The notes under the pieces are model-generated. The model was not told the DNA's origin. It did no database searches and saw nothing but the letters and a program-made list of their open reading frames with translations. A stretch of DNA of 64,000 nucleotides, from positions 470,001 to 534,000 of the forward strand of contig CP014609.1 of assembly GCA_001586195.1 (NCBI GenBank), in the 5' to 3' direction. The stretch's first letter is position 1; every line of letters starts with the position of its first letter. Below, one piece after another: positions 17,886 through 60,698 of the stretch. This DNA comes from Solibacillus silvestris (GTDB lineage: Bacteria > Bacillota > Bacilli > Bacillales_A > Planococcaceae). The translations under genes and the position numbers were made by a program.

Positions 17886-18060
17886 TTCTAATATATGATG
17901 GAAAGAATCTAATAAAATAAAAATAGTTCTAATAAATTGGTTATTTTCTAATAAAAAGGATAATTATTCTAATAAGTGCTCGGTATTTTCAAATAACCGG
18001 CTCGAATCTTCAAATAAGTCACCGTACTTTTCTAATAACCACCACAAAAGTTCTATTAAA
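17886..18060 (+). repeat. 21-base-period TTCTA array A
   Basis: TTCTA or close variants (ATCTA, TTCAA), mostly followed by ATAA, start at 17886, 17907, 17927, 17946, 17967, 17988, 18009, 18030 and 18051. The intervals are 21, 20, 19, then 21 five times. Sequence between cores is not conserved. It starts 28 bases after a terminator and ends about 40 bases before the uvrB LexA box. It contains no supportable gene. Confidence 0.8.
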
Positions 18061-18101
18061 ACCAACAACGCATATCTAAAACACCACCGCCACACTAAAT
18101 T

Positions 18102-42751: not shown

Positions 42752-42913
42752 TTCTATATTCTCTCCGGAAATTTCTACATTCGTCGCAAATCTTTCTCCT
42801 TTAAGGGAGAATTGTTCCACATTAGATTCAAGTTGTTCTACTTTTCCGGCCCATCGTTCTACATTTCACCCGCAAAGTTCTAATATCCCCGGAAGTTACT
42901 ACGAAAACTTCTA
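42752..42913 (+). repeat. 21-base-period TTCTA array B
   Basis: TTCTA or variants (TTCTC, TTCCA) start at 42752, 42773, 42794, 42815, 42836, 42857 and 42878: six consecutive 21-base intervals. A degenerate copy near 42897 and TTCTA at 42909 break the spacing. It starts 28 bases after the yisL terminator. A spurious open frame across it reads as heptapeptides (S-T-F...). 42914-43075 holds no gene, only the leader of the next one. Confidence 0.82.
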
Positions 42914-48987: not shown

Positions 48988-49117
48988 TGCTAATAAGGCT
49001 GACTGAAGTTCTAATAAAAATGAAGAAGTTCTAATAAGAGGTCCTACTGTTCAAATAAACAAACCAACTTTTCTAATATCAAGTATGTAACTTCTAATAT
49101 TGTATAGAAGCGTTCTA
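48988..49117 (+). repeat. 21-base-period TTCTA array C
   Basis: Cores start at 48988 (TGCTA), 49009, 49029, 49050 (TTCAA), 49071, 49092 and 49113. Intervals: 21, 20, 21, 21, 21, 21. Most cores continue as TTCTAATA, as in array A. It starts 15 bases after the clpB terminator. Confidence 0.82.
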
Positions 49118-49161
49118 ATAAAAAATGAGGCAGTAAAGCGCCGCAACAAATAGAGCGGTAA

Positions 49162-52221: not shown

Positions 52222-53671
<1,450 letters not shown>

Positions 53672-55509: not shown

Positions 55510-55537
55510 AAAGCCACCTGATTTCAGGTGGCTTTTT
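55510..55537 (+). terminator. Terminator of mecA
   Basis: A perfect stem AAAGCCACCTGA (55510-55521) with TCAGGTGGCTTT, three-base loop, then T-run. Confidence 0.9.
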
Positions 55538-55573
55538 TGTGTTTGTGCTGGGGGGATATCTGGTTGAGGGAAG

Positions 55574-55703
55574 TAGAATATAGAGGGGCAAAAGTAGAAT
55601 AATGGTTGAGGAAAGTGGAATATAATGCGTGTGAAGCAGAACGGAGCATCGAGAAAGTAGAACCTTGTGACGGAAAAGTGGAAAGTTCGTCTATAAAAGG
55701 GAA
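55574..55703 (-). repeat. 21-base-period TTCTA array D (reverse orientation)
   Basis: On the plus strand TAGAA, TGGAA or CAGAA start at 55574, 55595, 55616, 55637, 55658 and 55679: five exact 21-base intervals. A weaker GGGAA is at 55699. It is the only array here with the core on the minus strand. It starts 37 bases after the mecA terminator. Nothing else is seen up to coiA. Confidence 0.82.
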
Positions 55704-55816
55704 CGGCAATCAATAAAGGTATAAATCCTTTGAAAAAACCAGTTTCCAATAGTTACTATTTATAAGTTGAAATTGAATGTTCAGTTCATTAAGATGGATA
55801 AAAAAGGGGGTAGCGA

Positions 55817-58846: not shown

Positions 58847-59161
58847 CTTGAAAAAATGGAAATTTACTTATTAGATGATGAATTTGATGAAAAAAGATTG
58901 CGGTTGATATTAAGGGGAAATGGTTTAGAAATGTTGATATATCGGCGTTTGAGACGGGAATTTGACTACAGATTTATGACATTTTGTTTTAAACCACTTT
59001 TCTTTGAATGGAAACGCTTACTATATGACGAATTTGTGAAATTGTGAAAGATACATTGCAAGAAATATTATTCCATGATAGAGTAATACTCGTGAAATAA
59101 ATCACATAACAAACATACACCCCTTTGTTTGAACGTGAACATTTCTCCCATCCCCTTTGTG

Positions 59162-59207
59162 AAAAAGAGGCGTCTTATTTCTCGAGAATAAGGCGCCTCT
59201 TTTGTTT
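59162..59207. terminator. Second hairpin downstream of pepF
   Basis: GAGGCGTCTTATT pairs with AATAAGGCGCCTC (one G-U) around a CTCGAG-centred loop, with A-run before and TTTTG after; it can act in both directions. 58847-59161 holds no supportable gene. Confidence 0.72.
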
Positions 59208-59212
59208 TGTTC

Positions 59213-59626
59213 TTCTAATTCGTGCTCTCGGGTTAAAGGGGAAAGGGAGTTCTACTTAATCAGGCAAGTAGAACTCATTCCGATAGAAAGTTTCTACATA
59301 TCAGGGGAAACGTTTTACCTTCACCTTAAAAGATTCTACTTTCTCGATTAAATTGTCTAATAAGGAAAGGGAGTTCTACTTAATCAGACCAGTGTTCCAC
59401 ATTTCAATGAAAAGTTTCTACATACGAGGGGAAATATTCAACTTTTACCTCAAAAGAATCTACTTTCCCAATTGAATTGACGAATAAAGAGAGAACGTTC
59501 TACTTAATCAGGCAAGTGTTCCTCATCCCACTCGAAACTTTCTACATTCCAAGACAAACGTTCTAATTTAATCCTAAAAAATGCCACTTTTCCAATCCGA
59601 ACGGCGAATAAAACAAGCGCTACTGC
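59213..59626 (+). repeat. 21-base-period TTCTA array E with 124-base superunits
   Basis: About 20 cores (TTCTA, TTCCA, TTTTA, GTCTA and weaker forms). From 59250: 59271, 59292, 59313, 59334, 59355, 59374, 59395, 59416, 59437, 59458, 59479, 59498, 59519, 59540, 59561, 59582 and 59603. Intervals are 21 except two of 19. GGGAGTTCTACTTAATCAG-like blocks recur at 59250, 59374 and 59498, exactly 124 bases apart (five 21s and one 19). It starts six bases after a hairpin. 59627-59804 has no gene. Confidence 0.88.
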
Positions 59627-59804
59627 ACTTCATCCAAAAACGCTTCTGAATCCCTCACAACAGCTTTTATAATCTCCCTAACTGATGCTAGTAAGTTCTC
59701 CATTCGCAGCCGTATAAACGAGCACAGGGGCAAATTTACCTATATCTATTCTTACCACCCTAAAAGAACTCACTTACCTTATTCCTTCTTCGCACAACTT
59801 CCGG

Positions 59805-59876: not shown

Positions 59877-60698
59877 TTAGTAGGTCGTGCGTTCTTTTGC
59901 ACGCCAAAGTGTAATTTCGTCAGTCATGATGCGTTCTACTTTTTGCTGAAGCATGCGTTTCTTTAATTCACGTTCTGCCAGTTGTTCATTGATTGAGTAG
60001 ATTTCGGCTACTTCAGCTGTTGTTAAGGTGCTGAATCGATCGAATAGCTCATCTAATGCAGGAACCGGTTGGCGAATTAATTCTTCCCCAAGCAATTCTG
60101 CTAAAATATGCTCGTAAACTTCATAATTATAAGAACCGCTTACTTTCAGGCCTTCATCTTCAATGCATTCATTGAAAAATACGATGCTTGGAATTTCTTC
60201 AACTTCCATTTCACGTGTTAAGTATAAATCACATTGGAAGGCGCGAGCTGCTTCTTTTGAACCAAAGTCGGACACGAACTCATCCATATCCAGGTTAACT
60301 TGCTGGGCGATTTCAATTAATGTCGCATGGGAATTGATATTGCGTGTATTAAGTGTCGCTACTTCTTGAACTTTGTTTAAATAGCGGAAACCTGCTCGCT
60401 TTCCTTGAAGTTCAGCCGCTTTAATTGCAATTGAAGGTAATGCTGGATGTGTAATATCCAATTCCGCTCCGGAAACACAGCCTTTCATCCGGCTCGTCAT
60501 GCTGTTGAGAGCAGAGAGTTCCGTACTAAGGACATATCGACATGTAAAGTAATGACCATATTCTACTTGCAGTTTACGCATTGTCGTTTGAAGAGATAAT
60601 GCTTTTTCGCAAAGGGGGTCAATAAAAATGTAAAGCTCAATCGGTTTATTACATGTGGATGGTGCAACAGGTTGCTGTAAAAGTTGGATATTATTCAC
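59877..60698 (-). CDS. spxH: SpxH (YjbH) adaptor for Spx degradation
   Basis: A 273-residue DsbA-like thioredoxin-fold protein. IELYIFIDPLCEKALSLQ (IFIDPLC) is the family's active-site region. SpxH binds Spx and presents it to ClpXP. Here C30 is present but the second Cys of the usual CxxC is A33, and the N-terminus (QQPVAPSTCNKP) lacks the His-rich zinc-binding stretch of the B. subtilis protein. GTG at 60698 follows GGAGGG and overlaps the yjbI stop (GTGA), so the genes are coupled. Confidence 0.9.
   Translation of the reverse strand: MNNIQLLQQPVAPSTCNKPIELYIFIDPLCEKALSLQTTMRKLQVEYGHYFTCRYVLSTELSALNSMTSRMKGCVSGAELDITHPALPSIAIKAAELQGKRAGFRYLNKVQEVATLNTRNINSHATLIEIAQQVNLDMDEFVSDFGSKEAARAFQCDLYLTREMEVEEIPSIVFFNECIEDEGLKVSGSYNYEVYEHILAELLGEELIRQPVPALDELFDRFSTLTTAEVAEIYSINEQLAERELKKRMLQQKVERIMTDEITLWRAKERTTY

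Follow-up and report, generated by a model that had tools for sequence, protein, structure and literature searches.

The closest known class of repeats is that of the STAR elements of Staphylococcus, which are intergenic, interspersed direct repeats with a conserved motif and locus-specific spacers; the loci expand and contract, and, while no function is known for them, their conservation is read there as a sign of selection (PMC3532100). The STAR consensus is the 14-bp GC-rich sequence T(G/A/T)TGTTG(G/T)GGCCC(C/A), with spacers of at least 40 bases (PMC3532100). Here we report on a family of arrays in Solibacillus silvestris and specifically on one member, array E, in the window (the whole stretch of 64,000 nucleotides that was analysed). 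Like STAR elements, the arrays are interspersed, intergenic and variable in copy number, but their motif has 8-9 AT-rich bases that recur every 21 bases and are helically phased, and the 14-bp STAR consensus is absent. The steps are mostly 21 bases (some 18-20 and a few 22-23) compared with the STAR spacers of at least 40, the unit is shorter, and there are two motif classes, one of them mostly on one chromosome arm. Moreover, STAR loci differ between species, whereas the sites in the stretch that we compared are common to the species examined.

As in tandem repeats of the VNTR type, copies stand head to tail and their number differs between genomes, in our case genomes of different species rather than isolates. 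The REP/BIME sequences of enterobacteria are palindromic repeats dispersed behind the 3' ends of genes; copies of the present family are likewise dispersed behind gene 3' ends, but apart from the RoxS terminator there is no hairpin at E. MITEs are marked by terminal inverted repeats and target duplications; E has no inverted repeat at its flanks, and at two other arrays there are imperfect pairs of 12 and 16 bases. CRISPR loci, which go with cas genes, have longer identical repeats and unique spacers, whereas here the unit has 21 bases, the motif 8-9 bases, and spacers are common to superunits. Plasmid iterons, i.e. direct repeats spaced about two helical turns apart, are plasmid-borne, whereas these arrays are chromosomal and the three that were tested have no plasmid match. 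In the matS/MatP system single palindromic sites are found in the Ter region; the regional concentration of one motif class is similar, but here the sites form arrays, mostly on one arm, for which no binding protein was identified. Finally, Rok, a xenogeneic silencer of Bacillus subtilis, favours 5-base sites, AACTA and TACTA among them, and ATCTA or TTCTA occurs in four of its 27 best 8-mers (PMC6212790). The sites described here differ in being strictly phased with class-specific extensions, and Rok was rejected as their binder since PF23159 is absent from all 16 genomes of the genus (the Bacillus subtilis control was positive). Searches of an open-access library, which omits most subscription papers, listed no paper on such arrays.

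Two motif classes in a chromosome-wide family

The arrays lie on a single-contig chromosome of 3.99 Mb, in which three TTCTA cores at a spacing of 20-22 bases are matched 140 times and the reversed pattern not once. Two classes can be distinguished, with the unit consensus TTCTACTTT (TTCTAC class) or TTCTAATA(A/T) (TTCTAA class). With strict class patterns the TTCTAA class gave 93 matches, which form 40 clusters, and the TTCTAC class 31, which form 10, i.e. 50 clusters in total, to which weaker arrays, e.g. A, B, D and E of the window (Table 1), are additional; the class and arm statistics were drawn from the whole strict-class match lists. For position and motif counts we used arrays with a score of at least 33 and four exact cores, 40 of which were detected in the stretches retrieved for this purpose and none in the reversed control. 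At low scores the chain detector is noisy, with 91 chains in reversed control DNA vs 114 in real DNA.

The information in the motif lies in positions 1-9 of each 21-base unit. At positions 8-9, which played no part in the finding or classing of units, one class has A (99%) and T (63%), the other T (97%) and T (89%). The mean step is 20.54 and 20.75 bases (26 and 14 arrays, respectively). Most TTCTAATA arrays are paralogues of approximately 70% identity that resemble one dispersed nine-core element with a common step pattern (21/20, 20, 19, then 21s). The TTCTACTTT arrays are runs of 21, the longer ones interrupted by one 18-19-base unit per superunit, mostly with CTAATAA, TTCTAAT or CGAATA.

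Arrays are located behind the 3' ends of genes in either orientation. On the basis of simple ORF calls, several of which overlap the arrays, the gene context of the 40 arrays is convergent in 16 cases and tandem in 22, and the two called divergent both have ORFs overlapping the array. With dnaA at 3,707,911, nine of the ten strict TTCTAC clusters lie on the right arm, all nine within a 1.1-Mb interval 0.35-1.45 Mb clockwise of dnaA. TTCTAA clusters occupy both arms; of the 40, the right arm has 21 and the interval 15 (TTCTAC vs TTCTAA in the interval, Fisher P 0.004, the interval having been picked after the data were seen). A hand list with weaker arrays, the window's own included, gave 14/16 for TTCTAC vs 17/41 for TTCTAA. 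The TTCTAC clusters of two other genomes lie at 0.35-1.23 Mb (7/7, G101) and 0.33-1.12 Mb (8/9, G062) from dnaA, and as these are partly the same orthologous sites they are not independent evidence. Polarity relative to replication, judged by eye, followed no consistent rule.

Array E, its superunits and its neighbours

The preliminary description of the window had array E composed of three 124-base blocks with six cores each, and this was borne out: the block starts are exactly 124 bases apart, TTCTACTTAATCAG is present at each, and every superunit has six units with the steps 21,21,21,21,21,19 (Table 1). Tandem Repeats Finder independently gave a period of 124 with 2.5-2.9 copies and a score of 350-372. 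At lag 124 the self-match of E is 0.72, while the best lag in 100 Markov-resampled copies had a mean of 0.36 and a maximum of 0.40. The chain score of the 21-spaced cores is 64.5, as compared with a mean of 11.1 and a maximum of 22.9 in 300 Markov resamples, and an exact TTCTA is present at the start of 8/18 units. Units like those of the decayed leading partial superunit also precede the first superunit in the related genomes G132 and G138.

Table 1. Arrays and neighbouring features, with positions in the window
Feature	Position	Strand	Remarks
Array A	17886..18070	+	TTCTAATA class, 9 cores, steps 21,20,19,21,21,21,21,21
Array B	42752..42898	+	TTCTAC class, 7 cores at 21
Array C	48988..49133	+	TTCTAATA class, 7 cores here; the four relatives have two units more
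T-box leader	53448..53664	-	Rfam RF00230, 132 bits
Array D	55537..55724	-	TTCTAC class, reversed; chain with only 3 exact TTCTA cores
RoxS/RsaE small RNA gene	59092..59200	+	Rfam RF01820, 87.1 bits; directly upstream of E
RoxS terminator-like hairpin	59163..59203		ends 6 bases before the partial unit of E
Leading partial superunit of E, decayed	59210..59249	+	one 21-base and one 19-base unit; by eye
Array E	59250..59621	+	3 x 124-base superunits, between two genes
Superunit 1 of E	59250..59373	+	5 x 21-base units, then a 19-base unit (GTCTAATAAGGAAAGGGAG)
Superunit 2 of E	59374..59497	+	final 19-base unit GACGAATAAAGAGAGAACG
Superunit 3 of E	59498..59621	+	final 19-base unit GGCGAATAAAACAAGCGCT
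Reading-frame remnant RIDIGKFAPV	59620..59773	-	between E and spxH; peptide at 59678..59773 IS110-like by eye only
Convergent neighbour gene, spxH/yjbH-like	59877..60698	-	by position and sequence

The resemblance of the superunits extends to the sequence between the cores, as the preliminary description had stated. Pairwise identities are 93/124, 85/124 and 85/124; core identity is 42-45 of 54, and 49, 43 and 40 of the 70 spacer positions match (shuffled letters 0.29), such that the preference for the core in E itself is weak. When any unit offset is allowed, spacer identity is 0.70, 0.63 and 0.60 inside E, while E compared with 13 other TTCTAC arrays of its own genome gives a mean of 0.31 and a maximum of 0.47 (n=408). 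The superunits thus resemble one another more than E resembles any of these arrays, and the outcome that would have refuted the preliminary description did not occur. Between two other arrays the highest spacer identity is 0.89, in a set that mixes the own genome with relatives and so includes orthologous arrays. Since the spacers are shared inside E and not with other arrays, and since orthologous copy numbers vary by species, the superunits can be attributed to tandem duplication of a multi-unit block.

Two parts of the preliminary description have to be modified. A superunit repeat sets E apart from the other arrays inside the window, but not genome-wide, where superunits are present in other arrays as well as in those of relatives. 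In L071, superunits in register have spacers that are 0.49 alike at lag 6 and approximately 0.25-0.38 alike at other lags. The expansion of E was also said to be recent; its superunits are 69-75% alike, which is not above the likeness between superunits of this genome (G000) and of G132 (64-81%) and far below that of the flanks (approximately 91%), and E has therefore not expanded recently. Rather, the array looks partly decayed. A recent expansion did take place at another locus, in G132, where the superunits are identical at 110-118 of 124 positions.

We treat the RoxS/RsaE gene as a neighbour of E; its terminator was the only structure returned by the hairpin search at E. Matches to roxS of 89.6-100% identity are present at 15 of the 16 loci of the genus, with none within the fetched flank of G083. 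On the other side of E lies a convergent gene which we take to be spxH, and in 8/16 genomes of the genus (L037-L040, L042-L045) the spxH-like match has one stop, which may be just the natural end of the gene, inside the aligned range. The RIDIGKFAPV remnant between E and this gene is also present in G132 and G138.

Related species and other genomes

At the E locus G000 and G132 both have three superunits (in G132 one of them is 102 bases long), G138 has one superunit plus one unit, and G101, G062 and G126 retain decayed remnants; no array was recognisable at this locus in G013, G048, G120, G114, G108, G092, G032 and G073, and G144 has a gene-sized insert without an array (G083, in which the roxS flank was not found, is left out of this comparison). 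At another TTCTAC locus we counted 7 cores in G000, approximately 34 in G132, 23 in G138, 16 in G101 and one in G126. Eight TTCTAC loci were looked for in the relatives; a402 turned up in none of them, and the rest mostly vary in length, with D being alike in G000, G132 and G138. Judged from these copy numbers across species, duplication of multi-unit blocks, put forward in the preliminary description as a mechanism for growth of the family, is a general mode of growth of the TTCTAC class.

Three orthologous TTCTAATA arrays are nearly constant in length across 4-5 comparable species, the exception being array C with its two units fewer here. In these three arrays the TTCTAATA core shows about a quarter of the divergence of the spacers. 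The pairwise values are 0.046 for core positions 1-8 as against 0.199 for spacers, and they become 0.045 and 0.197 without G000, the genome in which the arrays had been detected, and without G138, from which the register was taken. Beside array C in G101 (L352-L358) there is an insert with a gene resembling, by eye, a group II intron reverse transcriptase. Inserts in or beside the arrays of relatives (by eye, group II intron reverse transcriptase-like and ISL3-type transposase-like) were considered as a clue to a mobilising enzyme and discarded as ordinary passengers.

The genome G126, of the same genus, has no TTCTAC triplets and 141 TTCTAA triplets, and where its stretch contains the flanks of a TTCTAC locus (5/8 loci) there are remnants or near-empty sites. 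The TTCTAC class has thus been lost on its own in G126, as would be expected if its factor had been lost. Among genes near arrays that are missing from G126 (approximately 137 kb of this genome), the candidates for such a factor were only of surface type by eye, with no clear DNA-binding protein. Eight of the 16 genomes of the genus have only 0-11 triplets, so that any function would be dispensable there or met by other motifs.

Among 200 genomes of the bacterial family, 30 have at least 20 matches and at most four in the control (count from the table), and 154/200 have at least one match, much of it background. Control matches equal or exceed the real ones in G026, G097, G095 and G067 because the arrays there carry ATCTT. 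Other genera show the 21-base architecture with core extensions of their own. Those of the Lysinibacillus (g14) and Bhargavaea (g4) records are seen in family genomes, from which the family can be taken to be Planococcaceae, and some genomes combine the 21-base frame with quite different cores, e.g. TATCTTACG or CTAATCTTCAAACTC. G084, of another genus, has long runs in which every step is exactly 21. Outside the family, superunits are of the form 4x21+19 in a Neobacillus record and 4x21+18 in a Ureibacillus record. In G026 (L396, L397) several gaps between genes, in an 18-kb and a 15-kb stretch, contain superunits of approximately 230 bases that join four to five 21-base units to further conserved sequence, and G067 (L398-L403) has at least four different 21-base array families within one genome. 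A pattern scan of genome contigs returned at least 120 stretches, with 15 Bacillales by title among the 80 matches listed. We examined 23 of these 80; several others are unrelated coding or simple repeats, and the pattern alone is therefore not diagnostic. In viral contigs the scan returned at least 119 stretches.

A putative binding platform and its alternatives

Judged from sequence, we give a chance just short of even to the arrays being helically phased putative binding platforms that in the TTCTAC class grow by multi-unit duplication. The motif recurs about every two helical turns (mean 20.5-20.8 bases), and one sequence-specific DNA-binding protein per class may load cooperatively on one face of the helix. 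The indirect indications of this are the phasing and, in three TTCTAATA arrays, the constraint on the core. From the position of the arrays, the role would probably be in nucleoid architecture or in insulation between transcription units rather than in promoter control. The 18-19-base unit, occurring about once per superunit, pulls the average step from 21 towards 20.7 bases, near two turns; the arithmetic together with customary values for the helical repeat suggests that the 19-base unit may restore the phase, against which the long runs of 21 in G084 may be set. Between genera the recognition letters would have drifted while the 21-base spacing stayed. An extended version, which we regard as unlikely, is a Bacillales-wide chromosome-organising system where fast-evolving putative DNA-binding proteins sit on the arrays behind gene ends, the arrays grow by duplicating superunits, the classes mark chromosome regions, and motif and protein co-evolve by genus; TTCTACTTT would then mark mostly one arm and TTCTAATA both arms.

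Alternatively, and this is possible though somewhat doubtful, the family may be a selfish dispersed minisatellite, spreading and growing by recombination and duplication without host function, with gene 3' ends as harmless sites and the core kept for some spreading machinery. Growth and contraction in tandem, the location at gene 3' ends and the patchy species distribution, with one class absent from G126, are consistent with this, as is the fact that most TTCTAATA arrays are paralogues with one step pattern, like copies of a dispersed element; the core constraint, too, could come from the needs of a mobile element. Yet in the window-homologous parts of four relatives all arrays above threshold are at sites A-E, with no new site, and the TTCTAATA arrays keep a near-constant length in 4-5 species (apart from array C here) while spacers diverge by 20% and cores by 5%. 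E has no flanking inverted repeat, the pairs at two other arrays are imperfect, and neither a plasmid match (three arrays) nor a phage match (one array) was detected. Capture of iteron-like replication or partition sites from plasmids would account for direct repeats about two turns apart, a resemblance to plasmid iterons, but it is very unlikely given 50 strict chromosomal clusters and the absence of similar DNA in 72,556 plasmids for the three arrays tested.

The location of E behind the RoxS terminator, in the same orientation, would fit an array that acts as RNA, transcribed behind RoxS or an upstream gene, e.g. as a sponge or a 3' stabiliser. We consider this very unlikely: nine of the tandem-placed arrays are co-directional with the genes and 13 opposite, which argues for DNA over RNA, array D is reversed, on neither strand does E fold as RNA beyond what chance would give (z 0.02 and 0.63), and species that lack the array still have a conserved roxS. 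That E is part of a mobile element beside a broken IS110-type transposase start has next to no probability and is largely refuted. The peptide RIDIGKFAPV is by eye similar to the IS110 N-terminus, but it has no Pfam match, and a comparison with the IS110 copies of the genome, which are located away from arrays, gave nothing significant (best E-value 1.7).

If a protein binds the arrays, they would be the address list of a so far unnamed level at which chromosomes are organised across a large order of bacteria, and the TTCTAC class, missing in the close relative G126, would provide a genetic handle in the form of the genes lost together with the class. If the arrays instead are selfish, they represent an unusually well preserved bacterial satellite, the growth steps of which can be read from species to species.
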